Part shown: piece by piece, positions 10,103 to 40,877 of the stretch | Layout of the letters: every line of letters starts with the position of its first letter | How positions within the stretch are numbered: the first letter of the stretch is position 1 | Assembly (NCBI GenBank): GCA_004123355.1 | Contig: SCHM01000004.1 | Location: 1,178,001 to 1,242,000, forward strand | DNA: 64,000 nt | Source of the DNA: Amphirosellinia nigrospora | Lineage: Eukaryota; Ascomycota; Sordariomycetes; Xylariales; Xylariaceae | Direction: 5' to 3' | Translations under genes and position numbers: made by a program | The notes under the pieces: model-generated | What the model saw: only the letters and a program-made list of their open reading frames with translations | What the model was told of the DNA's origin: nothing | The model's database searches: none

Positions 10103-12659
10103 ATGCGACTTCTCAAATATGATCCGGATGGCAGGTTAGCATTGGAGACCTTTGACCTGAGCGAGAACGTCTCTCTTGAACCATATGCCGTGCTGTCGCA
10201 CACTTGGGGTAATGAACAAGATGAGGTCACATATCAAGACATATTGAACGGTACTGCATCTTCGAAGCCAGGCTTCTCGAAGGTTGAGTTTTGCGGCAGG
10301 GAGGCCGCTCGCGAGGGTTACAAATATTTCTGGGTTGACACCTGCTGCATCGACAAGTCAAACAGCACTGAGCTACAGGAGGCGATCAACTCAATGTTTC
10401 GTTGGTACCAAGGCTCAGCGCGATGTTATGTCTATCTTTCAGACGTCAAGGACGACCGCGAGAACGACGGGTACTGGGAAAGATCTTTCCGTGCCAGTAG
10501 ATGGTTTACTCGCGGCTGGACGCTGCAGGAGCTTATCGCCCCGTCAACAGTGGACTTTTTCTCTTCAGAGGGCCGGTGGCTGGGTGATAAACGCAAGTTG
10601 AGACAACAGATATCTGAAATAACTAACATCGACCCTGAAGCCTTCCTGGGAAAACCCCCTCATCTATTTAAATTAGAGGAGAGATGGTCGTGGTCCATTG
10701 GCCGACGTACGAAGCGAGAGGAGGACGGTGTTTACTGTTTGTTAGGTATATTTGGAGTGCATATGCCACTCATCTACGGCGAAGGATATAATAACGCCCG
10801 CAAACGTATAGAGCAAACGCTCGACAGACACCCGAACCTGACGACGATAAGTGAGTAATATTCTGGATTCGGAACGCTGTCAAATACCCACGGCTAACAA
10901 TGTATATATTTTAAGGACCTAAAGAGGAGATTCAGAGAAAAACCGTCTTCGTGGCCGTCATGGGACTAACCGGGGTTGGGAAGAGCACCTTCATATCCCA
11001 TTGCACGAACGGAGCTGCGAAGGCCAGTGGCAATTTGGACTCTTGTAATGACATGACCCTATTTCCTTGACTAGCTACCTTGTCCCAGGAGCTCGCGACA
11101 CCTCCCTAGTAGGAATGGGTACCTAATATAATTGCAGGCTAACGATAAGCAAATAGGCACGCAGAATGTGCGCGAGTATAGTTGCACCCACTTTGAAGAC
11201 GTCGATGTCCGTCTTATTGACACCCCTGGCTTCGATGACAGCGACCGCAGTGATGCATCTGTGCTAGGGGAGGTATCGCAGTGGCTGGGCGAAAAATACA
11301 AGCAACACATCTTATTACACGGTGTCATATACCTACAAAGGATTACTGATATCCGAATGCAGATGTCTTCCTGGAGGAGTCTCAGAGCACTGAAGAATGT
11401 CTGTGGAAATGACGCGTTAAAGAATGTCTACCTTGCTACGACCATGTGGGAAAAACTGACCACAGAAGCTGAAGGTGTCGAGCGTGAACGCTTGCTCTTG
11501 GAGCCAAAATATTGGGGTGATATGGCCAGAAAGGGTTGCAAGATACAACGCCTTCATAACAATGCGGAATCAGCTTTGGCTCTCGTGCGGCACGTAGTAG
11601 ACGGTAGTCGTCCCATCGGTGAGTAATTCTCGGAATCATTTCTTCTTCTTTTGGCAGCTTCCAAAGCGCAAGTTTGCCTTTTTAGGTGAAGACAGTATCT
11701 ATAAGCTTCTATAATCCTCGAAAACTACGCTCCAGATAGCAATAACTGACTCCGAGTGCTATAGTGCTACAGATTCAGCGAGAGTTAGTAGACGAGGCCA
11801 AAGATTTCGATGAGACGAACGCAGGAAGAGAGCTTAAAAGCGAGCTAATCCGAGAAAGAAGAAGTACCAGGCGGAGAAGGATGATAGTGAGTAATTCTTG
11901 GAGTTATTTTCCCTTGTTTTAGCCACTTCCAGAACAACAAGTTTTCGTTTTAGGGCCAGGACAGCATCGAGATGCTTCTGAAACCCTCAAAAAAACATAT
12001 TTGAAACGGCGGTAACTGACTCTGAATGTTCTTCTAGTGCTTCGAGAGTTAGAAGAGAAACGACTTTGGAGAGAAGAAACCGACAAAAAACTCGAAAGTC
12101 TAGAGGAACAGGTCCGCAAGAAGAATGCGGATATTGACAACCTCCAGTCCGCTGGGAAAGAGATTACTCGGAACGAATGCAAGAAAAGGAGACATACGAG
12201 CGGGAGATGCAGGCACTTGTGAAGGAAATAGAAATGAAGCGAGCGCTTGATTACGAGGCGAGGGATACGGAGGAGACAGAAGACGCGCTTGAAGAGCTGG
12301 AAGACGAATTAAAACGGAAGAATATGGAGATTGAATCGATGCGATTTAATCTAGGCCAAACTGCGGCAACGAATATGCGCCAAGATTACGACCTGGCGCA
12401 AACAAAAAGAGCGCTGACTGAAGAGCAAGAGAGATTTAAGGGCAAACTCCAGCGGCGAGAGGAAAAGATACAGAGCCTGAAGGCAGAGATAGAAGATAAA
12501 AGAGAGAAATTGCGCGCGGAAAGAGAACGAACCGCAAAAGAGCGGAAAAGAGGGGACGAGTACAGAGATAAGTACTACGATATGAAGGCCAGGGTCGAGC
12601 GGCGGGAGCAGACAATTGACACGCTACGCTCCAGCAGCAGCAGTAAACGTAGACACTGA
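10103..12659 (+). CDS. HET domain - P-loop GTPase - coiled-coil protein
   Basis: The HET domain fills exon 1 (10103-10850) with all hallmark blocks: AVLSHTWGNEQDEVTYQDI, YKYFWVDTCCIDKSNSTELQ, SRWFTRGWTLQELIAP and YCLLGIFGVHMPLIYGEG. Such domains drive cell death in fungal non-self recognition. Intron 1 (10851-10915) lies at the domain border. A G domain follows: G1 GLTGVGKST (about 10967), then after an intron ending at 11137, G3 DTPGFDDSDRSD (about 11220) and a TTMWEKL segment where G4 is expected. This resembles AIG1/HSR1-type GTPases more than NACHT or NB-ARC. The rest (11773-12659) is a long, charged coiled coil ending SSSSKRRH. Introns at 11619-11772 and 11887-12037 are related to each other. 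Frame slips lie near 11850 and 12160, where A runs seem one short, and at the joins around 11046/11138 and 11618/11773. A likely role is allorecognition or defence, by analogy. Confidence 0.9.
11619..11772 (+). repeat. Introner-like intron, copy 1
   Basis: This 154-nt intron opens GTGAGTAATTCTCGGAATC, has a pyrimidine tract and CAGCTTCC, then GCTTCTATAATCCTCG and AACTGACTCCGAG before the acceptor. The same ordered words occur in copies 2 and 3, one of them in an unrelated gene. Confidence 0.7.
11887..12037 (+). repeat. Introner-like intron, copy 2
   Basis: This 151-nt intron opens GTGAGTAATTCTTGGAG, then has CACTTCC, GCTTCTGAAACCCTC and GTAACTGACTCTGAATG before TTCTAG. It is collinear with copy 1 over nearly its full length. 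The exons after both copies begin alike (CGAGAGTTAG), so copies 1 and 2 may partly reflect a tandem duplication of intron plus exon start. Confidence 0.7.
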
Positions 12660-13356
12660 ATGTCTGAGAGATGGAATAAGAACAGAGAGCTTCCAGATAA
12701 TAGGGGAAAAGTTAGGAAAGGAACATTGTTATGTTATATCACTAGCGTAACCGGGGGATGTGGGAGACGATCTCAGAAATATGATGTTTAATACCATAGC
12801 ATATCCCTGAAAAGAAATATTTACTTGTCTGTATATATATCCAAGCAGTTACAGCTTATATTTATATGGTTGCGGCTATAGCTAGATTTGAATATAGTCT
12901 ATTGCGTATAAGTCTACAGTTACAGCTACTATTGTGCACTATTATAATTACGCTACAAGGCATCTGGCTACAGCCAATTCTCTATCACCCATCGCACCGA
13001 TGACAAACTTCAATACCGACAAGTCGCAGTCGCACCTGATTTGATTCGGTAGCGACATTGACGTCATTACGTCATTACTATCAGTACGGGCGGTTTTGAT
13101 ACCACCAAGGCTGCTAGCGTCCCTAGCTGAATCAATCATCAACGAGACTCATGTCTCATACCTACAGTTATCTACGCCACGACCCAACTACACACCCCTA
13201 GGTCTGCCTAGTTCTCGTTAGCTATGCCTTGACTTTCGCTACCGTTAACCTCGGCCTCATCCATCAATTGTGAAGACTGGTGATGGAAGACTGTCACATT
13301 ACATACAGGTCGCTCCAGGGGCGCACAACGGTCCGAAATCGGTTTAATATCTCATC
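12660..13356. other. Intergenic
   Basis: About 700 bp between two same-strand genes. It holds the 3' flank of the HET gene and the promoter of the acyltransferase gene. Nothing else is recognised. Confidence 0.6.
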
Positions 13357-15338
13357 ATGTTCCAACAAGAACAACAACAATCATCCTCGCCAGATCTGGC
13401 AACCGCGTATCGGGAGCTTTACCGAGCCAAATTCCGCGCCGACGTGGAGGCCGGCACCACGACACCGTTTGTGCTGCCATTGCATCTACTGACCATCTGG
13501 GCTATCCCAACGCTTTATCTAGCCATTCCGCACAAGAACAGGCCCTGGTTGTACCGTGCAAGGTGGCTTGTCCTTGCCTTTATCTGCGCTTTCAACTGGC
13601 ATATGACCAAACATGTAGCGAGCTTGAACTTCGCGCCAAGCTATGTCGTTGGCTTGGTGTCTGCATGGTCGACTATTTGGAACTTGACGCTACTAGTATG
13701 GACAAGACCTCAATGGGACGCGAAAAGAGTAGAAAGGCGAAGGATTACTACTCGACCTGGTGACAGGATTGTGCTTGAGTCGGCATCAAATGGCTCAGCC
13801 GAAGTTAAAGGGATGCTAGCCAACGGCGTGAGGAAAAGAGAGGCACATGCTAAACAATGCAGTGTGGCCCCAGAGAGCACAGAGCTGGGAATAGACGATA
13901 AGTTCCTCTTAAAGAGCATAGTCGCTCTAAGTGATCGTGATGGGAACTTACAGCTTGACCAAACTACGGCACTCGAGCTTAGTAGGCTCACACGGCAAAA
14001 TGAGTATGAGTATTATTGGCAGGAGTATCCCGCAGAAGCCCCGTTCAGGGTCCGTCTTGACTGGGCATTCGATATCGCGAGTTCATTTCGCTTGACTGGT
14101 AGGTGCCACGCAGCAGTCATTATGAAGTCGGACATAGATATTGTGCTAAGCTTTATCTAGGTTGGAATTGGGCGCCTTCTTGTCTACCACCATACCAGCC
14201 ACCTCCCAAAATTGGTCCATACCAGCTACCACTAGAATATGGTTCGCACAGGAGCAAGGGAGGTTATGAACGGACCCTTTCGCGACGGAAGATCATTCTT
14301 TCCCGCTTTTTCTTCAAATTTATACCCAGCTACATCATTCTGGATATCTGCGCCACACTCATGACGACTGACCCCTATTTTATCGTCGGCCCTGAGCACA
14401 ACTACCCCTTGCCAACACACCTCGCCTCACTACCTCCAGTGATTCTCTCCCTCCAACGTACGATGATAGCATTTATCGGGATAGTTTTCGCACTACTATA
14501 CCTCTGGAACACTGGTACCCTATGCCTAGCCATATACTGCCCCCCATTCTGGGCTTTCGCGTTCATCCCTGGCATCTACCATCTATGATGGGGTCATTCA
14601 CAGAGGTGATGGACCACGGGCTATCTGGGTTTTGGGGCACCTGGTGGCATCAAACGTTCCGCGTTGGGTTCTCGGCGCCGACCAAGTGGCTGTCACGCCA
14701 CGGTTACCTGCCATCGTCTCAGAAGAGAGGCCAAGGAGTCGGGAGAATGATAACCCCTCTTGTAGGTGCCATCATAGCTTTCGGGCAGTCTGGCTTAATA
14801 CATGCAGCGGGTAGTTATACCTCGGTCCCGGCCGCCCGTTATTGGAACCCACCTCTATTCTTTGCGCTCTCCGGCCTAGGAACAATTTTGCAGTCTATGT
14901 TGTCTCAGCTCCTAGCACGCAGAACCAAAAAACTTCCTCGCTGGGTGCGTCGCTTAGGGAATATAGCGTTCGTGTTCTTCTGGCTTTGGTCTACCAGCGG
15001 ACCGCTCGGTAAGTTTGTATTGGGCGCAATATATTTTTTGTTTCGGTTACTTTTGTCATATAATGGCCTTTTCCGGATCCAATTCGTTGTTTATCAAGTC
15101 TTCCACCCTCCTAGGAACTTACAGATTACTCTCATCATAGAGACAACTAACGTTGCGTGTTGTAGTGGACGATTTTGCACGCTGCGGACTTCTGCTCTCG
15201 GAGCCTGTTCCGGTATCCTTTGCGAGGGCCGCTGGGCTCGGCGTCGATAGACGTATATGGCGTTACGATAGGGATTTGCTTCCTAGATGGCAGTGGGGCG
15301 CTCATGGTAGATGGTGGGAAACGGGCATTTCGATTTAG
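13357..15338 (+). CDS. Wax-synthase-like (MBOAT-type) membrane acyltransferase
   Basis: The product is a polytopic membrane protein of about 587 residues resembling fungal wax-synthase-domain proteins, which transfer acyl groups to hydroxyls of lipids or secondary metabolites. Exons are 13357-14098, 14161-15008 and 15166-15338. The N-terminal half has several helices and the family-like WSTIWNLTLLVWTRPQWDAK. The central block MDHGLSGFWGTWWHQTFR (about 14608-14663) carries the histidine expected to be catalytic, followed by helices with FGQSGLIHAAGSY. The last exon has WQWGAHGRWWETG. The frame shifts once, at a run of six C (14540-14545) that would read through with seven; correcting for this, all splice phases agree. 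The substrate cannot be told from the sequence, and no other biosynthetic genes flank it. Confidence 0.85.
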
Positions 15339-15933
15339 GCGGCTGGAGTTTGGAAGAGATAGGATACAGATAATAGAGGACTATAAAGCGTTGGGATACA
15401 GGATGCGTGGCATATAAACAAAGATAGAATCGTGTGGCGCTGGGTTCCTTAGTAGTTCTTCTATACAGGATGAACATCGAGCAGTAGATGGATTATCAGT
15501 GTGAGTACTGCAGAGGATGGTGGCGTAATCGTCATTTTCAGCCCTGAGCAAATCTCATCAAGAGTGTACATGTTCGGTGTTTGCGTTAAAGAATAAAGAG
15601 GTTTCTCGTTGTCGCAACATCCAATCAAGGAGCAAGGTTTTCTGCCGTGATGGTATCACAGAGGATTTCAATCCCATTAAAGCGGGTTAATTCCTAGGGA
15701 AGGGAGACACTATGTCTTGATAAAAAAATATCTGAATCTTAGCAGAGGTTCTTGCGATGCAAGATAGAAGCAGGTTGGCCTGCTATTGCGTGGAGAGCCA
15801 GTTGTCACTTTATCACCAACTAGTTATAACTCTGAGCTAGGATGAAGGTTGCACACGCCGGATGTGATGATGTTTATATACTACTTAAGTATTACGTAGG
15901 GTACCTCAGGGACCTGGGCACCAAGGCTATTAA
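15339..15933. other. Intergenic, convergent 3' flanks
   Basis: About 600 bp between the stops of the acyltransferase (+) and telomerase (-) genes. No gene or RNA is seen. Confidence 0.6.
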
Positions 15934-18900
15934 TTACACGATGGTCTGTACACGACCATGCCGAATATCCTTCAGAAGGCTCAACTTGACACTCTCTACC
16001 TTCAGCCAGGTCAAGACCTCGCCGTACCTGGATTGCTTGCGGCCTAACACCTGGTAGAATGCGTTATACGCCAGCCTCGATAATTATTAACTTTGACAGT
16101 TCATACCCGGACCAATGAAAGGGAGGACTCACCAGGATACTTCACATTTCTTGACATCACATACATAACCAGGATATCGAAGCCCCCGCCTTCTGCTGAC
16201 GAGAAGCAGATATGCCGTGTCGGTTAGTTTCCCGATCGTTCCTGTAGGGAGTAGTAGAAATCATACTTAAAAGTCTCTGGGCGTGGGGTTGCCAGCATAC
16301 TGATAATAACCTTCGGGGTGGTTGCTTCGGCGTCGGTAAGCAACGTGCATAAGCCCACATCTTGGTAGCAGTTTCCATAAATGCCCTATGGATATTATTC
16401 AGCATAGTTGGTGCGGAGTTTAACCCCGTATCAAAAAACATGAGGTGACTTTGGATTTTGAATGCGTCTAGAAATATTAGAGATTAGTCTCGAACTTCGG
16501 TACTCAATGTCTTATAGACCTACTGAGGACCTTGCGCTGGAATGTTTGACCAGGGATTCGACTGAACTCGACGGTGAGTGAGTTGTGTACTGTTGGAAAT
16601 GTTAGCATAACATGAATTAATTATCGGAGCTATGGTATCTACTCTTGTCTTGATCTTGATTCGAGATGCGGGCAATATCGAGTGTTTGGGTGTCGATTAG
16701 AGTACCACAATACGGAAAGAGGTTACCGTCGCCTGGCCTCGAGACCTGCTGGCCATTAATTTTCAGGTCAAAATTAACCAGACTTTTCCCAGGATTCACG
16801 GTGACGCCATATTCCGGTACACCATTGTGAAGAGTCTCGACAAACTGGACGGCTTTATGTTTGTCGGTGGTAATTAGTAGAAAATCATCGATCAGCCGCA
16901 TTAGCAGGCAGTCATCAGAGCCGAGGAATGAGAGAACGTGGACTTCGAGATCCGCGTAGAAATAATTGCAGAGTGTAGAAGAGAGAATCGATCCTTGCGG
17001 AATGCCCTGTTTTTGTCGGTAGAACTTCTTGCTGACCTTGACGAGGTTCTGCTGGATATGAGATGCTACCAGCTGAAGCATCTCGCTCGTTTCGTACTGT
17101 TGCTGATATAGATCGACAAAGACTGTATTTCGTTTCGCTACATTTTGCATATTCTCAAGACGCTGGATGAAAGTAGAGGAATCGGTATTTTTGATAGCGA
17201 CCGAGGGCCATCTTTTGACGGGTTTCGATTTAGAAATCTGACTACCCCCTGGACTGTAATGCTATGGCCTACTTCAAGGTACTTTGAAATTCGATATCGA
17301 CGTTGCTGAGGTATAGAATCTAGCAAGCCGACGATAGCTGCCTGCGGAATTGTGTCAAAAGCCGATTGCACATCCACTTTGGCGAAATAGAATGGGGTAG
17401 AATCAATAGGCATCCTAGCTTTGAAAGGCCTTATTCGATTGTAGATATCGCCAACGGAAAACAACGTTGAACCCATCTTTTCCGGGTTAATGGCCTAGAG
17501 AATGTCAATAAAAAGAGCAAGAATAGTCTTTTCGCCTGGCAATCCGACCTTTTCAAGCTGAAGAATCGTATACGCTGGTGATAAGATCTTGTTGATACCT
17601 GGGCCCAGTTGCTTGGGGTTCCGACGGTCAGGTATCCTCTTGCGCAGGTTCGCAATTGGTCTCATTTGTGCCCCTTTGGGAAGTACCTGATATGATGAAT
17701 CCAAGGCGCCGTGAATCGAGTATCTTTTTCGCGTCTATAAGGCTGATCTCTTCCAAAATATTCCCCTTCAAAGCTGTCATGGCAGGCTCTACCAGGGACC
17801 GCCAAATGTCATGCCGGAAAAAGTAGATACGATACTTGTCGGTGTTCGACTCCGTCACGTAAAAATTACTTCGAATAAGGGGTATCAAAATAGAATCAAA
17901 AAGATAATAAAGAAATTCGTTCATGAGCTCTTGTCTTTTCTGGATATCAGTCAATGACGTTTTATTCGCCATAAGCTGAGGAGGTGCAAGCCATTTTATA
18001 TTGGTTATCTGGCAAATGTCAACCTAGTCCGGCGGTCGTATACACTATGCGAGACTCACTTGTAATTCTTGAGTTAGTTCACAAAGGGTCATACTCTCAA
18101 AACGCCTGAGAGAGATGAACCGATCGATTTTCTTTAAAAATTTCAGCTCGTTGTGGCCTGCGACTGAACCGCTGCCCCAAAATTCTTGTGGGATCACCTT
18201 CTTAAAAACAGCCTGACAGAAGGACGACACCTCAGCAGAAGAGGTTGCTAAATCCGTGATCGAGGCCTTCGTGCTTCTTTGTGGTAGCTGCATCGATCTT
18301 TGGAATTGCGTCGCATTTTACCGGTACTCTTTTTGGATTTTCGTACTTTTTTTTGAATCTTGTCAGACTCTGGTTGGATATTAGGCGCATTCGTAGACAG
18401 ACGGACCTATCAATATTAATAATGATTGAAAAAATCGATCTTTTCTGAGACATACCGGGCAATAATGTTGAAGAAGCTGTGAATAGGAACAGCGCTGGTG
18501 AAGAACCTGGAGCTTGCGAACCAAGTCACTCGCACGTCCTCGGAGTCGCTTGGGAGTCTTAAGGTGCACATGATTATCTCCGAGCCGGCCAAATTTCTCA
18601 AAAACCTCTTCCTCCCTTAGAGTATAATCCTTCAGACGCTGCGATGTCTCTTTAAGGTCGATTTTGCTGGTGAAGACGTTGTGAAGGCCGAATTGTCTAG
18701 GGAACATGTACATAAGCACTTTGAGCGTATGAACCTCGTTTTGCCGATCCAGCCGAGTTCGCATTTCGACACCCTCTCCCTCCTCAAGCTGCTGATATGG
18801 ACAGCGATTAAGTACATCTATGTAACGATTAATGCAAGTTAATGAAATTGGAGTTGCAATATTTACGGATGTGCCTTAGGCCAAATTGAACTTGCCCCCG

Positions 18901-19881
18901 AGTATTGAGAGTAGGCTTGGCGTAAAACATTCGACTTCGGATAAAAACAAGCTCAGAAGAGGTCTTGGCTATCGACGTTCCTTTGGAAGATATAGAAGAG
19001 CACAAAGGGATACTAGATAAAATCCTTCCTGTGCATAATGTAAGCACTCATCAGAAACCCCAACGTACAGTAGTAACCTACCGCTGATTTGACAGATGTT
19101 GTTCGTGCCTATGTCAAGGGCCACAAATATGGCGCAATCAAGAAGCAAGTCTATCATGATGCGATCGCCGGATTCGCCTAGGAGGGCTAATAGTTGTGGC
19201 CAAGGCATTTGTTGTAGTGCTTCCACATAAGGGTTTGATCGGACTGCTTGCAGCCCTAGGCTGCCATGTCGACGAAAGCCATCGCAGAGCATGTGATCTG
19301 GCCACTTCGCAGTTTTCTCTCTGTTAAATAAAGTTTTTACAACATATTCTATAATCTAGCGATCATTTGTCAGTCAATCATGAAGCCAAGTTGAGTTTCC
19401 CATACTCGTCCGTCTACTGAAAAGGGTAGTGAGATAGCTACTCGCTTACCAGGGCCTGTGATTCAGCAAAGCCGGCTACACCGTTGGAAAGAGTGACATA
19501 TGATTCGTCGCCTCTCTGTGAGAATTTGTTCCACCCATCCACTCGGCCGTCTTCTTTAGTTGAAGAGCTTGAGAAGCCAACAAGTGTAGTGTCAAGTAAA
19601 GCGCCAAGAGATCGCTCTATGTCAGATAAGGGCGTTCCAGGGGGTGTGTGGACAGTACCAATGGCGGAAACCTTCCTTCGCCTAATTCTAGATGAGGATG
19701 GTAGTTGGGTGACGATATAATCGCGGAGGGTTTGAACTTGCGGGTAGTATTGGCTTAGAACAGGATGTTGAGCCCGCAATTTTGGCGATACTTTACTGCC
19801 ATTTGTCCTCTTAAACGGCACATCCGTTGGAGCTTCGTCATGAACAGAAACAGGGCGTTTACGCTTCCTTGGGCGAGCCAT
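15934..19881 (-). CDS. TERT: Telomerase reverse transcriptase
   Basis: Catalytic subunit of telomerase, copying the RNA template onto chromosome ends. The start is 19881 (MARPRKRKRP, basic N-terminus as in fungal TERTs). Exons read 19881-19450, 19355-19082, 19028-18867, 18817-18456, 18406-18060, 18008-17549, 17494-16643, 16589-16524, 16467-16133 and 16075-15934, that is nine introns. The N-terminal region has WPDHMLCDGFRRH and LLGESGDRIMIDLLLDCAIF. The RNA-binding region has SSFCQAVFKKVIPQEFWGSG. The RT region has FFRHDIWRSLVEPA, LPKGAQMRPIANLRKR, motif A FYFAKVDVQSAFDTIP, QKQGIPQGSILSS and motif C LIDDFLLITT, with the metal-binding aspartates present. The C-terminal extension has MFFDTGLNSAPTMLNN and ends near YQVLGRKQSRYGEVLTWL. 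Single-base slips occur, such as a five-base C run at 17245-17249, near 17690, in exon 5 and in exon 9. Confidence 0.94.
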
Positions 19882-27000: not shown

Positions 27001-30000
27001 GCAGCATCAAGGACACTTACAACCCCCACCGCTACCCAGAGGGATGCTAGCCCTGAGGATGACGTTGAAGTGAGCAGTGTTCAACAAGACCCAGAAGATC
27101 TACGTTATTCTGTAGATTCTAAAAGAACGCTTGGGACACGCCCTAGTTTGACTGTGCCCCGGACATCAGAATCGGTGAACAGAGCTAGTCAAACTACTAT
27201 ATGGACTGATTATTCGGTGAATAGTCAGGATTCAAGCTCAGGCTATGGACCTACGGACCAAGATTCTCGGAAAGCGGCATTCACGTGGCGGGAGGCGCTT
27301 GCTGACTCGGAATCGGACTCAAGATCAGAGTCATACGACTACAGCCGAAACTCTATGGCTGTTTCCAATAGTCGCGACGTGTCTCCTTCTGAAAATACCG
27401 AGAACCGGAGCTGTATGAACCACAACATCAGCTTCCAGAGATTGACATAGGGGAAGAGTTTGCTGCGGGCATTCTGAGTCGCAAGAATAGCATGAGCTCA
27501 TCTGCGATTCCAGTGCTTCCCAGTCACTCCCCTCCCCACCGCCTGATGATGCTGCTTTCCGTGATGTGCTGAGCTCGGCGCCACCAAGCGAATATTATGA
27601 TGAGACAAGACCTAACAGCTTCTTGCAGAACGAACAGGACGATCAAAGCCTGATTTTAGTGGATTCTCTAAAGGGCGATAGCGACTACTTTGCCCCCTTA
27701 GAATCAGCTTCACGGTCAATCGACCAAGGGTCATTCACGGCCTCTGAAGATCCTCATTCTGGTTCCTCCCGCTTGACAAGCCAGCAGACTCTAGTGGAAA
27801 GCATCAATGTCGAGCAAGCATCCGGTCTTCCCGCTAAAGAAAAGAAACGATTATTTACTCGTCTCGAAACCCTTAAAGAGCTTATAGATACCGAAACCTT
27901 TTTCATCAGAGATATGAACATTGTTGAAGAGATCTACAAAGGAACTGCCGAGGCTTGTCCGAGACTTGATGACAAGACTATTAAACTTATTTTCCGCAAT
28001 ACCGATAGATCATTCAATTTCATTCCACGTTTCTAGTCGAGTTGAAGGAGGGCGTCTCGAGTATATATACCCCTAGGATACATCGCCATGTGCAAAAAGA
28101 CACATCCAGCCCTAGTGATAGGATACCACCTTTATCAAGCGCGGCTGCGGCTGCCTCCGGCCAACTGAGCGATGATAAAGACCGGGAAACTTCATTGGGT
28201 CCGATTTTCCTCCGAAACATGGAGGATATGAAACAGATTCACGAGACATTTCTCAAGAACAGTGATCATGCAGCTAAGCGATTGATTCAGATCCAGGAAG
28301 ACCCGACAGTTCAAGTTTGGTTAAATGAGTGTAATGAAGTAGCTAGAGAGCTAACAAGAGCTTGGAACTTGGACTCGCTACTCATCAAGCCGATGCAAAG
28401 AATCACAAAATACCCTAACTTGCTCATTCAGCTACTTCACGCGACGCCTTTAGATCACCCCGATCGCCCATCTCTCGAAGCCGCGAAAACAGCCCTAGAA
28501 AGTGCAATTGAAGAGATTAATAAGACAAAAAAGAACTTTGAATTAGTTGGGCAAATCGTTGGTCGAAGACGCAAGGAATCTGACGTCAAAGCTGGCCTCG
28601 CAAGGGCATTTGGCAAGAGAGTTGACAAGTTGCAAACCGCCACCAATAAACCCCCGGAGGATACTGAGTACCTGAAACTACATGAAAAGTTCGGCGATGA
28701 CTACCTTCGACTACAGGTCGTTCTGAGAGATGTTGAATTCTATGCGAGACAGGTAACCGATCATGTCCATGAGTTTTTACAATATCTCTCTTCTATGGAA
28801 CTTGTCATGCGCCTTCAACCATCACCTCATCCCGAGATTGAAAGTAAATGGGTTCGCTTCAACGTCTCTATGAGAGACATTGAGAAGGTTGCTTTGGAGC
28901 AGCATGTAAGTGATAGTTCAGCGCCTACGCGAGTTGTTTCCGCACTACTGACACGGCTCAATAGCTCTCACAAGTCCGGAAGCAAGTCATCGAACCATTC
29001 GAGCTTGTGATTAAATCCTACAGCAACCCATCCCTCGCGATGAAGAAGAGATCTAAGCGCCGAGTTGATTACGAGAAATATCTTCAACTGCAAAAGAGCG
29101 GCAAAAAAATCGACAAGCAACTTTCAGAACTCGTTGAGCAATACGAAGCCTTAAACGAAGCCCTGAAGAAAGAACTACCTAGACTTTCAGCCTTGACCGA
29201 AAAAGTAGGCAACATTTGTCTTGGCAATTTTGTCAACATTCAAGCTCAGTGGTTTTCGATATGGAAAGGAAAGTCAAAGTAGTTCTTGAAGAGACAGATG
29301 TTCCCGAAGTCTCGGCCATCGTGTCGACATTTTTTCAGGACTACAAATTTCAAGATGAACAAATCAACACAATCGGCATCATCAATCCAACCTCCAAAGG
29401 CCGCCCATCACACTCTATAAGCGTCGACGAAGCTTCATCAAGATACCGACTCCGGCCCGCAGAGCCGTCTCCTCGTCACCGTGGGCTGTCCTTGAACAGC
29501 GATATAGCTCCAAGTTTGCCAACGCCTGACTTTATGAAGCGCCATAGCGGCCAGTTCACAGCCTCTCCAGCCATACCTTCGGTGTCAAGCCCGAATCAAT
29601 CTTATCGAGATTATTATAATGGGGCCAATGGACATGCGCGCCCTCCGACTCCCCAAAAGCTCCAGATTTCTCTTCAGTCTCAAGATCGCTAGCCACACCC
29701 CCCGTGCGGCCGGGCACTGGTCATAGTCACGACTCGGGCGGCCTAGTTAGACAGAGTGTGGAGTCAAGTTCACAATCTCGGCATTATGCCAACTCGGCGC
29801 AATCATCACCTTATCAGACTCCTGATAATCATCGATTTTCTGGCATTTTCCAGTCAGCACTCCCTCTGTCAGATGCACAGGAGAGTCATCTAAGGCGATC
29901 CCGAGTCTCCTCTCGAGCTTCTTCACGCGAGCGTAAACCTATCAATGGATATAACGTTCTCTGGCTTGCTGCTTCGCTTTTTGAATTTAACATACAGACC

Positions 30001-30223: not shown

Positions 30224-33200
30224 GTCGCTGGCATAGTGCATATATATTCTTCCACAACCCGAAGTTTGAGTTCGAATTTTTACAAGATCTCATCAAAAGG
30301 TGGTCCAACCTGAGGTCTGCAACTCAGTCGCGTCATACATGATTGCGTGAAAGCTACCAGGTGTGTGGGAAATATTTGGCGTTCATTGTTTTCCGGAAGT
30401 ACGATGAAATGGGACACGATATTTACTGGGTGTGTGGGCGGGAGGAATGGGATCTCAGCAATGAAAAGAGGTCGTCAGCTTTTACCATTTGATCTTCATC
30501 TCTTCGGAAGGAGAGCAACAGTACAGTTCACTTACAGATGGACTCTTCTAATTTTTCATCGGACTCTTCACAGCAGGCATACTCTTTACACATCATTTAC
30601 GCGGCGTTTAGTATCCCGTCGTGGGCGGAGAGGTAAACGGTGTAGTCGGAGCACCGTATTGTGTTGCTCTTCACGTTGTACGTGCGAGCCTATCAAACCC
30701 ATGTCTCATTTGTTTTGTTCTTCTTGCTTTTGGCCCTGAAGTAGGGTTTGGGGATTGGAGGCCGACGAAATGAGAAGAACCAGCTTCGGGCAATAGAGCA
30801 CGGCAACAAGGATGGAGGGATCTGCGATCCGATCCAACAAAACTGGACAGTATCTCTATTGGAGGATGTTATCTGTGTTATAATAAGACCATCATGGGTA
30901 AAAAATACTTGTGTCTACGGCAACGATCCCATGTGTATCACTTAGTAGTAATGCAGTTGTTACCTAAATACTAAAGCTGACGGGCAACAAGGGTTTCCAA
31001 TGCTGTGCGTCTCATATGTGAATGGTGTGGCGAGATCGAAAATTTCGATTCCTAGGTGTTTGATATGAGACGCTAGTCTAAGTCGCCTTCTCTTGAACGC
31101 CTCTCTAGTTCATGAACGCAAACTACCTAAAATATGTGCGAGCGAAATCATTTCAAGCCAACTCGATCATGTAGCCTTCTTAAGAAAACATAGCCAAAAA
31201 GGGAGCAAACAGGGAAACAGAAATTTTTCAAGTTTGGGGGGAGGAGCTACAACAAACTATTCGTGATTTTTTGGGGGATGGAGTCAGTGCGGCTTTTGAT
31301 GACTGTTAAAAGTTTGCATATGGTGTTTATTTTACAGCGTATCTAATAAGGCAGACAAACATATTGGTTGTCAGAGAGCTGGCCTAGGACAATCGAACTG
31401 TCATTATGAGGTAGACAAGCGGATACCAAACCCTTCAACCTGAACTGCATCATCGTAGCAGAACCGAATGAGGAAACACAATATCTAATCACAGCCAAAC
31501 ACACTAACCCAGCAAGGTATTGATGTGCGACTTCTTACCAGGTATGTACAGTAGAACTAGGTAGGTACTGTATGAAGCGGAGATTTATACGGGAGCTAAA
31601 GCAGAGAGATAGATGGTCGTTGTGGATCTGAGAAGACGTTGGCGCTAGCGTACCTACACTTGTACATACATTAGATTCGGCTTGGCTGCTGTAGGCGCCG
31701 TGCTTCCGCCTTGCCGCCTCTAAGCTACGCCTTTTGTGAATGTGCATCTAGCCCATGGAGGTAAGTGTAGACCGACTCCCGTCCCAATGTCTACACACAT
31801 ACGTACATATACTGTACTGTACTGTACATATATACATAGTTAATGTAGCCTATACCGAATGCTCAAGAAGCCCGCTACCTAAGTGTATGTTGTGCCCTAA
31901 AACTATATCCCTTTTGAGAACAAGAGGCGTGAGCTAAATGTACTCGGCCCTATGCGGTGAAAGGTTGGACGAGTTACCAGGCATTAGATTCATACTTAAC
32001 CATTCTTGAAGTTGAGATCATTATGGTGGTCAAAATAGTGTGTCCAGCAATACATACCCGGCGGAGGCTAGCTGGGGGAGACGCATCTATTCCTGGGGTT
32101 CGACGTCTTAGACAAGGATGGCGAGCCGCGATGGAACCTCACCCATCATGAATACCCCTACCCAGGTTACATCTTGGTCGGTCTCATCACACTACTGTAC
32201 GCTATGTAATTTCGTACTAAGGGCCAGCCTAAGGGCAAGGTAGCTAGCCCTCGCTATTCCTCGCCGTCGTGCTGTTGTTTCGATCCCTCCGATATCGAGA
32301 TGGAGACTGTAGGGCATCGGCTACCGAATAGCCATACCCACTCTACTACGTCAATGGTCAATGCCGACCCTCGGTCCTGCTCGGTGAGGGCATGCTCTCG
32401 CCTATCGGTAAAGATATGTCCGATTGTGCAACACGCAACGGCGCCCGTCCTCGACATCCCTGTGAGCCTTGCATCATTAAGTCTTTGTTCACATATCGTT
32501 AAGTGCCGAGACAACTGGATCGGGGGCGAGTTTCCATCATAGTCCTGATCCGCTGAAGAATGAAGCACCCCCCTACACGCCATCGACATGTAAGTAGGCA
32601 CTTGAATAACGTCAGTGCAAGCCCCGCCAGTTTGCCGCACAAGAAATCAGAGCATCATCAGCTACCTAAAGTGGTACAGCCAATCGGCAACAATCAGTTT
32701 TCATGACAGGGGGACTATTATCCCCCTTTACTATGAATTGGAGCTATGAGCTGATCTTAATCAAACAATGCAACCTCTTATTATTACTCATAGTCAAGTT
32801 TGCAAACTTTGGAAAACAAGTGGCAGAAGACAAACTTGACTGAGTTTGTCGACCAAATCACGGCACACGTGAACCCCCCCAGGCGCGCGTAAAGACGCCG
32901 TCTCCTTCCGTTGCCATCTTTTGCATGCGAATCGCGGGCTTAGCTGAGGAACAGAACTAGTACGATTTGAGACGGGAAAAGAACCCAGCCTGCGACCACT
33001 GGCAGGGTATTATTGATCACGATGTAACCTTACACCAACAAGGGGCAATTGTCAACAGACAGACATGGACTGCAATTGTGCCTGTTGCCGCCAGACATCA
33101 TCAATCCGTACCTCATAGAGCCTACTGCCGTATATACACTTCTAATACCAATACCTACCTACCTATCTACCTTGGTGAGAGCTTGCTTGTTTCTAGGTAG

Positions 33201-34601
33201 TCTATCTCCTCCTGAGAAGCTCCGAGTGGCATTGGGAGAGTTGGATAGCCAGTTATAGTCGTAGTATAGGAATTATTATTGTAGTTATTGACATTCTTGA
33301 TATTGTCTAGGCCTGTCCAGGTACCTACTAATCTGGTAGGTAGACCAGCTTATCAACCCTTATTCGGATGGATCATGGATGTGCCGCATCAACCCACCCC
33401 TGGTCTGATTGTGCCGACTACAGTCCTTGTCAACGATCGAGCGTACCTAGTGTAGTGTAGTTGCAAGGTTGTTCTGGACTACATTATGTATCACCTTCTC
33501 CATGTTCCCCTTACCCCCACCATTTGTGACACCGAATGCCCCCTTGCTCCCAGGTGCTACTCAAAGTTTGTGCAGAGGCTTTTGCGTGTTAGCAATCAGG
33601 CCAAGCTGGGCTGAAATGAGCAGGGCAGCCACTATTCTGCTAGGTCGTGGGTACAAGTACACGAGGTATATGCTGTGGGGCCTACGAACGAGACGAATGC
33701 TACCTCCTACCTGGGTGTAAAGGAATATTGCTAAACCACTTCAACCATACCTATGCATTTACCTTTTACAACACTACCTACCTAGGTAATAGGGCCCTTG
33801 ATTAAGCTACACAATATTGTCATCTTTCATAGATATACATGTAGGTTAGGTACTGAACATTTAAGCTATGGAATCCGGTACCTACTAGGTTCTACCGCTG
33901 TGGGAAAGAGGTACTACGTAGATGGATGCGGGTGTGAGTGGACTCCAAGCTTGGAACTTTTAGGTTGCTGTGTTGCTGCGAGCGCCAATCGGCTGTGGAG
34001 GGCGCTTTCCCTGTTAAGGTTCAAGACAAGCTTCCAAGGCCTCTCTCCCCTCTCGCGTCCTGAGGGGTACCCCTGTACCCCCGGCGGGCCTGGCGGAGCT
34101 ACAAACATAGTAGTAGTCTCTTCATAACCTTGCTTGCCATTTGCATTCTGTCACCTGCAAACATCCCTTTGCGCCTACCAAACACTCAAACCACAAACCA
34201 CCCACCCTCTGGAAATAGTATATATTGCAACTGACTTCCATCTTTTTCTTTCTCTCCCTTTAGTCTACCACCAAATAGTGCACGGAACTCGACCATATCC
34301 CTCATTCTATCCACCATCTCTTAATCCTATTATACAACCACATTAGGTTTATAGAGGTGCTCAAACCAGCTCTGCCCGACATCCAGTTCTTGAGTGATCC
34401 AGCTAGTGCCGTCGCAAAGCTTATCTAGCCTGGTACCCCGCGGTACGCCGTTACATCGCGCCTCGTTTTCCTGAGGTAGACGCACATACGATAGACAAGT
34501 CCTGTGCAGACATTGACCTCTCCTAGGCCCGGGCAGGTGTTAGCTGCTGGTGTTGAATTGTACCGAGAAGAAGTACGTGGAGGACGTTGGGTAAAGGTAC
34601 C
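30224..34601. other. Gene-poor region upstream of VelB
   Basis: About 4.4 kb with no credible gene. It contains TACTG repeats (about 31806-31826) and dense TACCTA/TAGGTA words (31560, 33156-33185, 33320-33350, 33776-33795, 33846-33890). A long, complex promoter for the developmental regulator VelB is plausible. Confidence 0.55.
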
Positions 34602-36252
34602 ATGGCTTCGGATACCCAGCTCCGCCGATTTATCATCACCAGCCTGACATGGCCGGCCCACCACCTCAACATTCCGGCTACGCTCCTCTTCCCCCACCGA
34701 TGCCACAAGCTATTATCCAGATTCAATAGCCAACCCCCATCGCCCGAACATGCCCCTCCCCGCGCCAACATGATGCCTCCATCTATACCCGGTCCTAGCC
34801 CTGGTCCCGGCCCTGGTTCCGGTCCAGAGACCGAGCATCTGACTTGGGCGCATCCGAGAACGCATGGGACCCAAGCTTCGACCCAGAGTGCGACTCAACC
34901 AGATACGGAAGAGTCAAGTACGGCCAACCTGGAACCAAGGGAAGGTAGTGACGGTGCAAGGAAATATAGGTGAGTCATTGATTGATTCGTCTTGGACCGT
35001 TATTAGAAAGCGCCTCTAGGTTGAGCCCAACCCCAAGAATGTTGCTTACCATAAAATCTATTCTAGATTAGAAGTGGTCCAGCAACCGCTGAGAGCACGT
35101 ATGTGTGGCTTTGGAGATAAGGTAGGATCTTTCATTGAAGTACCTGGAAGCCATGCAGAGATTAATCTTGTTTAGGACCGACGACCGATAACTCCACCAC
35201 CTTGTATAAGGCTTGTGGTAATGGATAAAGTGAGTGGTAAGGAGGGGACTGCAAGTAAGTCGAGGTTCACCAAGATTCAGGTTAGGCGACTAATTTCTCA
35301 ATAGCGAGGTTGAGCATCAGCACTATTTTCCACGTTGACCTATGTCTGAGGACGGTGCTAAAGAGGTGAATCTTGTGAAACATTCGCAACAATCACCGTC
35401 TATCTCATCAACTCACCCTTCCTCATTTCGGGAAGTTGTTGAAGGAGGACAAAGCGGTGTATATGGGTTTCAGGCCATTGTGCCATCCAGCCGCGATTTT
35501 TCGCAACCTCCGAGTTACTCACATCAAATGGCTCCCTATCAGTCAGATCCATATTCTCAGGGTGTTTGCCGCCGTGTCCTCCTTCTATGAGAGTAGTTTT
35601 TAACGTCTGCTTAGGGCAATATCCGTATCCACAACAGGTGCAGCCTTATGGTTATCCTCAGGGAGGCTATAGAGATATGGGAGCCGTAGCTCCTTTAGCG
35701 TCACAAGCGATGTATGGCCCTCGCTACTCCCACGACATGTCCGCCAGTGCCATGGCTCAGAGCCGCCTGATGGGCAGCAACAACCGAACGGTGGAATGTA
35801 CACGCGAAATCTTATTGGGAGCCTTGCAGCTAGTGCCTCGCGTCTACAAGATCCATCGGACAAGATTGGTATTTGGTTCATTCTCCAAGACCTTAGCGTC
35901 CGAACGGAGGGTTGGTTCAGGTTGGTCATCCCAGGCTGCAATAAGAATTTTGGAAGTGTTGTGCTCACATATTAACAGACTACGTTTTTCGTTCATTAAC
36001 CTCAGACGCCTTGGCGCAGCATCAAATGGTGGTAGTGACGCTGAACTTCTGAACAGAGGCAGAGCACCGGTCCTCGCTTATGCGTTCAGTGAGAAATTTC
36101 AAGTGTATTCGGCAAAGAAGTTCCCAGGTGTGTGCGAGAGCACCCAGCTTAGCAAGACTTTTGCTCTTCAGGGTGTCAAGATTCCTATCCGGAAGGACCA
36201 GGAGGGCAAGGTGGGAAAAGGTGGTCGCGGCTCTGATGATGAGGAGGAATAG
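34602..36252 (+). CDS. velB: Velvet-domain regulator VelB
   Basis: VelB dimerises with VeA (and VosA) and, with LaeA, links light and development to sporulation and secondary metabolism in the nucleus. Exons read 34602-34969, 35067-35121, 35176-35254, 35305-35561, 35615-35920 and 35979-36252. The Pro-rich N-terminus leads to the first velvet half: [18 protein letters not shown] then [18 protein letters not shown] and [17 protein letters not shown] Pro/Tyr/Gln-rich insert ([18 protein letters not shown]) separates it from the second half: [55 protein letters not shown] and [11 protein letters not shown]. The split velvet domain with this insert is specific to VelB. Frame slips lie near 34605, 34720, 35340 and 35770, where single G or C bases seem missing. 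The start at 34602 is likely but not certain; MAGPPPQ at 34649 is an alternative. Confidence 0.95.
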
Positions 36253-37943
36253 CGGCTCCCACTGGCACAACCAAAAATGGAAACACCAGAATAAATACCG
36301 GGACAAATTTTGGGTTCGATTTGTGGCGTGCACCAGATGTATTCGCTTGGAATTTATGCGACGGGATCAAGTTTGGACCTGGTGGATGCAACCACAGTCG
36401 GGATTAGAGTAAACGGCAAAGTAGCACGAACCCAGGCCTATTATTGGCGTGGCTATTCAGCCGTGGACGGGTACACTCTAAGTACGAGGTTATATAAAGC
36501 GACCGGGCTTGTATTTTGGCTCCCTTCACCCACACGACGGCAATTTCTATGCTGTGAATGATTGTTCAATTCCTTCACCTTTTCCTACCCCATGCGGGCG
36601 TCCAGCCTCTCAACTCGTCCGGCCTGGCATCTGCAGGGTGTAATACTGTTTTTCCTGCATGAGACCCAGTGACACGGGACACCCAAAAGCCGGAACCGAA
36701 CTGGCACTGGCTTCATCCGATGCTAAGGTATGTAGAAGCGGCACAGGATTCCGGACGGGTGGGTCAAAAGTTACAATTCATTTCGGTCTGATGCACAATC
36801 GCAGTCGCAGATGCTCACAATGCGCGAACAAGGATGAGACACATTTATGTGATTGCTTGTGAGACGATCTCATTGTATTGTATTGCATTGTCTTGTCTTG
36901 TAACTTCTACCCAACCTGTCTATACTAGCTTGGCATCTTTCAGCTTGTGGCTTACCTGCGCCTATCTTGACAGTGATATTATTATTATTGTTGTATTTAC
37001 TATTCAAGTTCGGGTGAGGCTGATTGCGCCCATTTGGCCATTGGCAGCCTTACTTGGCCGTGCCCTGACCTTGCATTCTCTCGAGTCCCGGCTGTGTTGA
37101 TCTTACCCAGATCAGCAAGTACCGAAATACAGCAACAACGCCGCACGAGAGCATGTGACTTGCGCAACTTTGTCTTCCTCCGGGAGAAGGTGCCGGAATG
37201 AATTCAGGAGCGAAGCTCTGCCCGATAGCGCCCCGTTATAGTGATGTGATGATGTGATGTGATGCGATGCGGGACACATCTGATCTGGCGACATTCGGTG
37301 AGCGGCGGGTGACTTTTCATTACGTCTTCGTTACCTCATATTTTCAAGTCTAAAAAATGCCCGGACAGCCACCCTGTCTCTGCCCTGTGGAACTGCCATA
37401 GTGCTTGAGCCGACCCTAACTACTTAATAAATAACTTAGTTGTGTACTGTAGACTACATACCTTGGGGTAGGTACGCTACAGTAGTGTATACGATGTAAT
37501 ACCCAAAGTCAGCACGTTTCCCACCAAGACTCACGTACCTGTGATACCGTGGCACGTAGTAGTACTACTTTAGGTAATCTGGAACCCAGGCGGCTGGGCG
37601 CACAAGCCTACTGTAGGTCCTGTTGAACTTAGGTAACAGTGGCCCTTTGTTTGTTCCATTCCATTCCTTATCTTAGTATATAGTCTGGATCCGGGTACGT
37701 GCCTCCCATGTCCTGTGGCCTGCCGCCTGCCCGCTCTTTTGGCTCTTCCTCTGTGTCGGGTGACGATTGAGGGCTCAGCGGCGCATCATAACAGAGGAGC
37801 ATTCCCCGGTTTCGCAAGAAACAACATCGATTGCCCTATCTGCCTACTCAGAGCAGACCCCACCATCACGCTGGGAAGCTGTGAAGCCGAGAAGCTGAGA
37901 AGCTGCATCGAACGGCACTTGCACCTCTCCACGGCCTTCCGAC
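36253..37943. other. Intergenic
   Basis: About 1.7 kb with no credible gene. It has TTGTA/TTGTC pentamer runs near 36873-36902 and GATGTGAT repeats near 37241-37270. Confidence 0.55.
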
Positions 37944-38495
37944 ATGTCTATGACTTCCACTGGCCGCGTGGCGCCGGCAACATTGCCGATGCTACCAAGT
38001 CTCCCCGTCTCCAGCCCTCCGACCTTGAAACACCTACACTCAAGACGTCTGTCGTGACAACTGGTCGCGGTGGTTCGGGCAACATGGCACCCAATTTAGA
38101 TCCCGTTGAACGCGCGCACGACAAGATGTTGGCCCGTAAGTATGAATCCACCAGGTCGAGGAATGCATGTCAAGGAGAGCCAGATATTGTATGCGATTCC
38201 CTGGTGGCAGTCGCAATAACAAGGGTGGCTAAAACAATAGTGGACTCGAGATGTGTAGGCAGAAGAGAAAGTATAATCAACGCTAACCTACTCTGAACCG
38301 CAGTATTCAGCGACGAACCAGCACGGGCGCACCATGTCGGCCGAGGCGGCGCTGCCAACATCGTCAAGGCTCAAGTACCGAGGCAAAGTCAAACGGGTCA
38401 GATGAGACTACGGTTACGGAACTGCTACCACCACCACCACTAGCACTACCACCGAACCGACAAGAAACCTCAACCAGCAGGACAAGTAGCGGTTA
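37944..38495 (+). CDS. Par32-like protein with GRGGAGN repeats (DUF3602 family)
   Basis: The family is small, disordered and defined by repeated G-R-G-G-[AS]-[GA]-N motifs; the yeast member Par32 is a phosphoprotein acting on ammonium transporters under TORC1 control. Three motifs are seen here: the first (about 37961-37985, TGRG then GAGNI) with one G apparently missing, TTGRGGSGNMAPNLDP (about 38058-38105), and HVGRGGAANIVKA after the intron. The segment DLETPTLKTSVVTTGRGG is family-like. Exon 1 is 37944-38135, the intron 38136-38303 (GTAAGT...CGCAG). The 3' end is uncertain: the frame slips after about 38365, and two frames of Thr-rich sequence end near 38489 and 38495. An earlier ATG in frame is not evident. 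Function is inferred from family only. Confidence 0.65.
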
Positions 38496-39469
38496 GCTGC
38501 TAGGGCTAAGGATTTCTTTAAGCTGACATAGGAGTTGGCGAGGAAGGCACTGTCCGATTTGCGCCTGCAAAAGGTCGTATCTAGCTTCTCTGTCTGAATG
38601 AGAGCAAAGAATGCCGGGGGAGCGAAGCTGCGAGTAAAGGCATATTCCGGGAAATCTGATAGGGGCTGCGCGCCGAGTAGATTATTGCGCTGGGCTAACA
38701 AGACGCCTCTGTTGTTGCTTTTCCCGTGACCTCATACTACTTCTCTCATCTAACGGAGAGTAGAGACGGTGCAATACTCTCGTAGACTTCACATTTGTTT
38801 TGATGCCATTATTCGCGAGATCATTACAAGGGACGCTGGTTACGAGAATATTGGCTTCCATTTTCAGGCGTTTTTACGGGGTTGGGCAGAAAGGTAGAAG
38901 GACAGAAAAAATGATTTTACTACTAAACTGCGTCGAGCCATGTGAACAGCTACCAATGAATATGCACCAAGATTCTCCAAGAGAAGAAATAATATCTACG
39001 ATCACAGATGATCATCGGCAAATTGATTCCGACCAGACCTCATAATGTTTCAATGTTCCTTTTCCTGATAGTACCTTACTTACTATCATGGTACGAACTT
39101 CCGGCGCCGGCGAGATAATGTGACTCACGCCGACCGATTGCTACATAGACGGAAGGAGCAGATCACATTGTGGATAGTAAGTTGACGTGGTTTCTCTTAT
39201 GTTGAAAACAAAATTGTAGCAAATGTGAACACGCCACAACACACCGGTCTTCGCACCTCTATTGAAGCGAATCTTATATTCCTAGATCATAAGGAGGGAA
39301 ACCAACCCCTAACATCTCGAACCGCCAGACGCACAATTCACTTCGATTACTCGTATATACCTGAAAAACAGTACAGGGTTATATCTGTGCGCTCCCAAGA
39401 TCCACGTCGACATTTCCTCGTCAGTAGGGGATTTTCCCGTGTGTGAGGAAAAGAGTTTCAGGCGTTGTC
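38496..39469. other. Intergenic
   Basis: About 970 bp without a convincing gene. The first 200 bp may include the true 3' end of the DUF3602 gene. Confidence 0.5.
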
Positions 39470-40877
39470 ATGGCACCCGAAGTGAGCGTCTACACCGCGC
39501 CGCCCAAGGCACTCCTCGAGGTCCTGGCGAGACCTCCCCACCTCCTGCGCGCGCTCCCCCTGGCGCGGAGGATGCGGTTCGCCGGGTTCCCTGGCGGCAT
39601 CACGGAACACGCGAGGGTATTGTGGGCCTCGGGCGTCTTGCTGGCCGATCATCTCGCTGCCGGCAGGGGAGTAGAAGAAGAGCGCCCCCTTTTCGCGGCC
39701 GCATACCTCGACTTCTCCCGCGGTCCCGAGACGGAGCTCTGGATCTACTCGTCGCTGGAGACGCGGTCGGGATCGGGATCGGGCGACGAGCTGGAGCGGG
39801 AGGAAATAACCTGCGCCGTCGCGCTCCTCCGCGAGGTCAAGAGGCTGCAGGACCTGTATTTCACGCCCGGGTCCGCGGCGGCGCGGGACCGCGAGTTCCC
39901 CATCCTGGTCGGCAACTTGGACGAGACGTTGCGGGGACGGCTGGTCGAGGCTGGCATGGCCATCTTCTCCACGGGGCTCTATGATAAGTTCATCTTCAAG
40001 GTCGACGAGCTGCCGGATGTCGGGTTGCCCGAGGTCTTGGACGACAGCGGAAGACGCTTGGTTTGGGATAGGCTTCGTCCTGAGGATATCCCGCTCGCCA
40101 TCTCGCGAAGTAATATTCCACGGAAGGAGTATGTTTTGTTTTCTACATGCCTCTGGCTTCCCCCTCCCCTCCCCTCCCCCTCCTTCCCCCCAAAAACGCC
40201 TACCCTTTTCCTCTCTTATGGATGGGTGGTAATGGAAAGGAGGCGCGTTTAAAGTCTATCGACTAATTAGAGAAATATCTGACTAATCAATTCGATGCAG
40301 GCGTACTGGTGCGTTTAGTTCTCGGAACTCATTTTTTTTCTTCTCGAAGCTTCCGAAACCCTCGTAAATTCACGATCTAAAAGGGGAACGACTGACTCGG
40401 CCGAGTAATATAGTGAAGCTTTTGCCGAGCACGGCGTTGTACCTCGACGATGGGACGCCGATTGCGTGGGCTTTTCTTGGTGAGTGGCTTCTCGCATGAA
40501 CCCTCTTACCACTTGATAAGATGGGGTGCGAGACGACAACTAATCAAACCTACTGTCGACCAGGACCGGATTCCTCGCTGAGTGGCCTACATTGCGAAGA
40601 ACCTTATCGCGGGAGAGGCATCGCGAAGGCTGTTGCCGTCAGGGTTTTACAGGATCACTTGAAGGACTATAGCGACGACGGTCATGGTTGGGCTGATGTG
40701 GCCCCTGATAATAAGCAGAGTCAGAGTGTGTGTCGGAGTTTAAATGGTCAAGTAAAATGGCAGATATCCTGGTGAGTTGACTTCAGTGCATTTCTATTTT
40801 ACAAGAGAGGCATCATTTTCTAACAGTAATCATACAGGAGTCGTCTGAATCTGGACCAGAGCTTCCCAGATGAATGA
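39470..40877 (+). CDS. GNAT-family N-acetyltransferase (FR47-like)
   Basis: Five exons, 39470-40128, 40301-40308, 40414-40479, 40564-40771 and 40838-40877, give an unbroken frame of 326 residues. The C-terminal part is the acetyl-CoA-binding GNAT core: TALYLDDGTPIAWAFLG (strands before the cofactor site), GLHCEEPYRGRGIAKAVA with the R-G-x-G-K/A-type pyrophosphate loop EPYRGRGIAKA, and WADVAPDNKQSQSVCRSLN, where Asn-x-x-S closes the fold. The N-terminal 220 residues are GC-rich and less conserved. Exon 2 is an 8-nt microexon (GCGTACTG) without which the frame is lost. The following intron belongs to the introner-like family. Substrate unknown; relatives are annotated as acting on amines or glycine. 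It converges on the heme gene, the stops being 48 bp apart. Confidence 0.85.
40309..40413 (+). repeat. Introner-like intron, copy 3 (short form)
   Basis: This 105-nt intron opens GTGCGTTTAGTTCTCGGAAC, has a T-rich tract, GAAGCTTCC, GAAACCCTCG and GAACGACTGACTCGG before AATATAG. It matches copies 1 and 2 at both ends but lacks about 45 nt of their middle, as if deleted between two CTTCY words. Confidence 0.65.

Follow-up and report, generated by a model that had tools for sequence, protein, structure and literature searches.

It is still unsettled how genomes acquire new introns; among the known processes that create many of them in one go, introners are the clearest. This question is raised by a stretch of 64,000 nucleotides (nt) from the fungus Amphirosellinia nigrospora (GCA_004123355.1, contig SCHM01000004.1, positions 1,178,001 to 1,242,000), referred to here as the window. 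In a sequence-only reading of the window, three introns of two genes had been found to share ordered words and were proposed to belong to a family of introner-like elements (ILEs). Are these introns related by descent, does the window hold further copies, and how would such copies have come to lie in different genes? Copying of introns into new genes is a known yet mechanistically unexplained way of intron gain. Our analysis argues that five introns (I1 to I5), and probably also a sixth (I6), located in four genes, very likely descend from a common ancestor.

Kinship of introns in four genes

The three introns that had been named exist and share ordered sequence from donor to acceptor. I1 (11619-11764, +, 146 nt) and I2 (11887-12037, +, 151 nt) interrupt the same HET/GTPase gene; I3 (40309-40413, +, 105 nt), a family intron with an internal deletion, lies in a GNAT gene. 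The ends first given for I2 and I3 were kept. I1, however, had been ended at 11772. Joining the exons at 11764 (TATAG) gives a single open frame (SRPI-VLQIQRELVDE / SRPIVLQIQRELVDE, phase 1), while joining them at 11772 shifts the frame on hand reading, and the acceptor was therefore placed at 11764. The shared words that had been quoted are present but approximate: the donor end of I3 is GTGCGTTTAGTTCTCGGA, with two extra bases compared with the quoted donor word, I1 carries GCTTCTATAATCCTC with three mismatches, and I3 carries GACTGACTC.

Comparison with shuffled introns had been named beforehand as a refuting test. With splice ends trimmed, the local alignment scores were 94 for I1-I2 (shuffle mean 24.5), 49 for I1-I3 (22.3) and 43 for I2-I3 (21.1), far above the shuffles; none of 1000 dinucleotide shuffles reached any of them. 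I1 was taken to 11772 in these first shuffles, the early profiles and the fold and self-complementarity tests, and to 11764 in later tests. When I1 was ended at 11764, the same three pairs were again reached by 0 of 300 shuffles each.

A search for further copies yielded additional members inside the window. With a profile of I1, I2 and I3 on both strands, only those three fell below E 0.1. A sub-threshold match (E 0.12) started exactly at donor 2384 and followed the profile nearly end to end. This is I4 (2236-2384, -, 149 nt), in an MFS-type transporter gene. I5 (1963-2102, -, 140 nt) was spotted by eye beside it when the same gene was read, and has the same word order as I4. I6 (15009-15165, +, 157 nt), the most diverged, was met as a recurrent sub-threshold match around 15034-15165 (E 1.6 in one profile run). 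Leave-out profiles placed it between E 0.035 and 28 in six of nine runs and missed it in three; the matching region falls inside an in-frame intron of an MBOAT gene. The original list of three was thus correct in its members, but had overlooked I4, I5 and probably I6. Translation of the joined exons stays in an open frame across the excision join at all six putative introns. Phases, read by hand from these joined frames, are 0 for I4 and 1 for the other five.

CTGAC is a fungal branch-site consensus, so its presence alone is no evidence of kinship. It was therefore removed in a core test, together with the donor hexamer and everything downstream of the last branch-like site; members from the same gene were excluded, and each intron was compared with 1000 shuffles. 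Eighteen introns served as controls, of which C1-C10 came from a crude ab initio finder and Ma-Me, G1, G3 and G4 were framed by hand. On the global statistic, I1 to I5 were each reached by 0/1000 shuffles and I6 by 1/1000, and the best control by 25/1000. The local statistic gave 5, 0, 0, 2, 5 and 22 per 1000 for I1 to I6, the lowest controls being C7 (22) and C5 (64). All pairs of 13 introns were also compared using 300 shuffles, with I6 left out. Eight of the ten pairs among I1-I5 were reached by at most 3 shuffles, against one of the 68 other pairs.

Profiles from which whole genes had been left out recovered members as well. A profile of I3, I4 and I5 found I1 at E 5.1e-6 and I2 at E 0.0013, and the profile of I1, I2 and I3 recovered I5 end to end at E 0.0017. 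On leaving out single introns, I1 was found at E 2.9e-16, I2 at E 1.5e-15 and I3 at E 9.6e-6 (partial, model positions 78-136). Apart from the six introns themselves, the six-member profile had no match better than E 0.1 on either strand of the window. In other profile runs the antisense of I2 itself matched at E 0.0017 and 0.00024, which reflects its partial self-complementarity (46/500 shuffles). The home-made finder, given no family information, placed introns at the donors of I1, I2 and I3 in two runs: I2 was exact in both, I1 received the 11772 acceptor in both, and I3 was exact in one and extended to a later acceptor (40563) in the other. This crude finder also placed a spurious intron in the exon between I1 and I2. 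Taken by member, I1 to I3 certainly belong to the family, I4 and I5 are well supported, and I6 is probable.

Four other candidates were not supported as members. Mb (3038-3183, -, 146 nt) was reached by 25/1000 shuffles globally, 289/1000 locally and at least 18/300 pairwise. C2, a 65-nt intron of the HET/GTPase gene (10851-10915), scored 92/1000 in the core test, though its first bases, GTGAGTAATATTCTGGA, resemble the 5' end of the family. The stretch 28655-28710 is a short partial match in a RhoGEF open reading frame (ORF), at best E 0.059, and 51032-51048 never fell below E 1.8 in the profile runs.

Intron anatomy, insertion sites and host genes

Full-length members measure 140-157 nt. I3 owes its shortness to a gap of 48 model positions in its middle, seen in the profile alignment. 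The full-length copies carry a CTTC- or CTTT-type word at positions 33-42 and again at 77-92, whereas I3 has only one such word, GCTTCCGAAACCCTC, near position 42. This difference fits a deletion between short direct repeats, by which I3 would have lost its middle. Each family intron contains CTGAC or CTAAC with its A 15-18 nt before the end; in I1, this branch-site-like CTGAC occupies 11746-11750 (+, intron position 128), its A lying 15 nt before the last base. The branch-site consensus is given as RYURAY in the available part of PMC12403724. One branch-like site is present per intron, apart from an extra, weak TTAAT in I5, and five of the six members end in TAG. Among the eight hand-framed control introns, six measure 53-84 nt and the remaining two 146 and 172 nt.

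The exon following the intron begins with TA or TG at all six family introns and at 3 of 18 controls (Fisher p 0.0006, post hoc). When only hand-framed controls are considered, T comes first at 6/6 family introns and 3/8 controls (p 0.03). The pattern was noticed after the fact, and I1 and I2 may share it by local duplication; a preference for T and then a purine directly after the insertion point is possible. The downstream exons of I1 and I2 had been said to start alike, as after a local duplication. They are indeed weakly alike (30/1000 shuffles over 122 nt and 40/1000 over the first 40 nt, mainly through a 14-base stretch), but the 100 nt upstream are not (310/1000 shuffles). The pair may have arisen by local duplication.

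Marks of a DNA transposon were sought at I1-I5. No clear target-site duplication (TSD) was seen at these junctions, the longest direct repeat being five bases (TAGTG at I2, made of splice-site letters); at I4 and I5 the junctions carry a 4-base AGTA direct repeat that is out of register. For terminal inverted repeats (TIRs) and self-complementarity, the values of I1 to I5 were reached by 414, 46, 399, 135 and 498 of 500 shuffles, so that I2 is marginal. The shared hairpin that had been suggested for the family did not appear: none of the five introns has a stable RNA fold (z -0.46 to +1.47), and their alignment gave no shared pairs in a consensus structure. A hairpin or TIRs in I1-I5 were thus rejected on the fold, self-complementarity and consensus-structure tests. 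Rfam returned no family at gathering score anywhere in the window.

The four host genes encode different domains. HET was detected in the gene of I1 and I2 (E 1.1e-14) and MBOAT_2 in that of I6 (E 2.6e-15). MFS_2 (E 4.4e-11) lies in the first exon upstream of I4 and I5, which belong to one gene with it by eye reading, and GNAT/FR47 in the gene of I3 (E 4e-4) is below the Pfam cut-off. I3 sits 8 nt from an unrelated, pyrimidine-rich intron of 172 nt (40129-40300); the micro-exon between them (40301-40308, +) was found by frame reading and in both ab initio runs. In the transporter gene, the exon between I4 and I5 (2103-2235, -) contains an in-frame TAG and the upstream part (3200-3300, -) shows frame breaks by eye, possible signs of decay or of mis-assembly. 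In the HET/GTPase gene, two frame shifts with no intron were read by eye in the coiled-coil part (11765-11886 and 12038-12200, +), and the first of them also appeared in the translation of the joined exons. Frame breaks thus occur in several genes of the window, with assembly errors or gene decay as possible causes; the six intron joins themselves are in frame.

Elsewhere in the window, a Velvet domain was also detected, which together with HET points to Pezizomycotina. A giant lysine-rich repeat gene (KKSKKDKKKK type) at 52462-63898 (-) was followed by the finder only with 13 one-base frame breaks, which may reflect decay or mistakes in assembling A-rich runs. A reverse transcriptase fragment (RVT_1, E 3.7e-11) at 16620-17261 (-) is probably a retroelement remnant. 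Positions 1-1000 are very AT-rich; in fungi, repeat-induced point mutation leaves stretches of this kind.

Origin of the family and rival explanations

Related introns in four genes with different domains, alike from donor to acceptor, support the introner-like reading that had been put forward. We consider it very probable, judging from sequence, that I1 to I5, and probably I6, form an introner-like family of ascomycete type that is old and decaying. The ancestor would have been one U2 intron, about 145-155 nt long, with its own donor, a CTRAC branch site (A 15-18 nt before the end) and an acceptor. It would have been copied in sense orientation into new places in different genes, with each whole copy inserting seamlessly. 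It is not settled how ascomycete introners spread in the absence of transposon marks. The most likely route would be that the excised intron RNA was reverse-spliced into a transcript, which was then converted back to DNA. Later the copies would have diverged by point mutations and by insertions and deletions until they resembled ordinary introns. The reverse-splicing route is preferred because clear target-site duplications and terminal repeats were not seen and all copies lie in sense, and we moderately favor this RNA route over DNA insertion.

Several results weigh against this reading. The copies are only 45-70% identical, unlike the near-identity of active families, and the near-identical copies that had been anticipated are thus not what the window holds. 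Pairwise, I4-I1 and I5-I1 are not similar (71 and 129 of 300 shuffles). The I1+I2+I3 profile reached I4 at only E 0.2 when it was left out with I5, and single leave-outs gave E 0.89 for I4 and E 0.14 (partial) for I5. In a reversed-window control the five-member profile found a best chance match at E 0.04; I4 is therefore not significant by leave-out profile. A stretch of the RhoGEF ORF likewise reached E 0.059 in one leave-out run. On the local-sum statistic I6 (22/1000) equals control C7. The controls are weak: they are mostly shorter, with cores of at least 90 nt in just 3 of 18 (Mb, G1, C10), and C1-C10 depend on the crude finder, with C3-C7 and C10 perhaps not true introns. The genes of I4, I5 and I6 escaped this finder altogether. 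Finally, Dothideomycete ILEs are described in the accessible text of PMC3443670 as folding stably, and I1-I5 do not.

A rival that concerns the route and leaves the family intact is a short non-autonomous DNA transposon with splice sites that inserted into exons. According to the part of a survey at hand, TSDs, TIRs or both are found in 59.2% of 130 introner families judged for both marks, and in 78.5% without ascomycetes (PMC9860276). Divergence could moreover have erased short TSDs. In this family, however, the longest direct repeat at the five junctions has five bases of splice-site letters, self-complementarity of I1-I5 is at shuffle level (marginal in I2), and no convincing family copy lies outside introns in the window, which makes this route rather unlikely. 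Nor is it probable that nothing moved at all, I1/I2 and I4/I5 being within-gene duplications and the likeness between genes a convergence on T-rich tract, branch site and splice sites. Same-gene pairs do occur, and the downstream exons of I1 and I2 are weakly alike (30/1000 shuffles). The similarity between genes nevertheless survives removal of the donor hexamer and of the sequence from the branch site onward, the upstream exons of I1 and I2 are not alike, and words such as CTTCYGAAACCCTC match no splice signal known to us; we give this explanation very little weight.

Shared sequence within introns of different genes is a usual sign of an intron-borne repeat or RNA gene, and a repeat or non-coding RNA gene such as a small nucleolar RNA inside older introns has to be weighed for this reason. 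It is highly improbable here, as the likeness extends to both splice sites, Rfam has no family at gathering score in the window, and the five introns gave no consensus structure. Equally improbable are cropped or intact [D1,2] stwintrons as in Hypoxylaceae and Xylariaceae. Introns of about 150 nt do stand beside a shortened one of 105 nt, and the segment deleted from I3 lay between two CTTC-type words, akin to the cropping between repeated palindromes described in the available portion of PMC8469720. Against this, each intron has one branch-like site (except for the weak TTAAT in I5) with no second intron visible, I2, I4 and I5 lack the upstream G that [D1,2] requires, the 10-nt palindrome WTTCTAGAAA occurs in 0/6 introns, and self-complementarity does not exceed shuffles in I1, I3, I4 and I5 and is marginal in I2. 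Stwintron identity was rejected, since no inner intron that interrupts the donor and brings a branch site and acceptor of its own is visible.

The introner-like reading can be extended, tentatively, to an undescribed ascomycete introner family with no stable fold that inserts seamlessly before T-purine and accounts for a large fraction of its host's long introns; we hold this to be possible, though doubtful. The observed density is 6 per 64 kb (Poisson 95% interval 2.2-13.1). At this density an assumed 40-Mb genome would hold some thousands, a figure that is biased because the window was chosen for its noticed copies. If true, copies at different stages of decay, with a possible insertion-site preference and no fold, would bear on the need of RNA structure for reverse splicing.

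Comparison with known introners and stwintrons

Introners are recognized by similarity up to both splice boundaries, by non-paralogous host genes and by at least four introns. Here the end-to-end profile alignments and the core test extend the similarity to both boundaries, the hosts are non-paralogous (HET/GTPase, GNAT, MFS-type transporter and MBOAT genes), and five introns plus one probable are linked, by profile and shuffles and not by BLAST at E 1e-5. Within the window, the six-member profile scan of both strands found the family co-linear with transcribed DNA only, as is asked of ILEs. The TSDs or TIRs that mark DNA-transposon introners were not found in I1-I5, and old copies could have lost them.

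The family words were also searched elsewhere. Five of them, in the open-licence literature, brought up no fungal intron paper by title, supplements not being covered. In a viral contig collection the two-word family pattern gave 0 matches, and the donor word occurred in 38 contigs with a best profile E of 0.15; prokaryote contigs gave 0 family matches, and the MBOAT fragment had 0 relatives in the collections searched.

Dothideomycete ILEs (Fulvia fulva, Dothistroma septosporum, Zymoseptoria tritici) resemble this family: they too are spliceosomal introns that are akin across genes, lie in sense only, can occur as two copies in one gene and decay rapidly toward ordinary introns, as far as the available parts of PMC4457414 and PMC3443670 describe them. 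They differ in reaching up to 98-99% identity against 45-70% here, a comparison made from published descriptions. The lower identity fits the decay of ILEs into ordinary introns as given in the accessible text of PMC4457414. The family was not filed among the Dothideomycete ILE families because I1-I5 lack the stable predicted fold that is a criterion for them.

Like this family, the sister stwintrons and cropped sister introns of Hypoxylaceae have proliferated, without flanking duplications and with internally deleted forms, according to the portions at hand of PMC8469720 and PMC12403724. In contrast to them, the present introns have no twin structure, palindrome or TIRs.

The ascomycete families of a survey of 3,325 genomes, for example in Alternaria alternata, share with this one that no TSD or TIR is seen, in the part of the survey available; they appear to replicate by direct insertion and are read as reverse-splicing elements (PMC9860276). 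The present family is more diverged. In a BLAST search within the window only I1-I2 (E about 1e-11) passes the threshold of 1e-5 given in the same part of the survey (PMC9860276), and I1-I3 reaches about 1e-4. This suggests that a profile search may find members missed by the BLAST threshold of the survey. The words of this family were not found in the open literature searched, and introners as a kind are already known.

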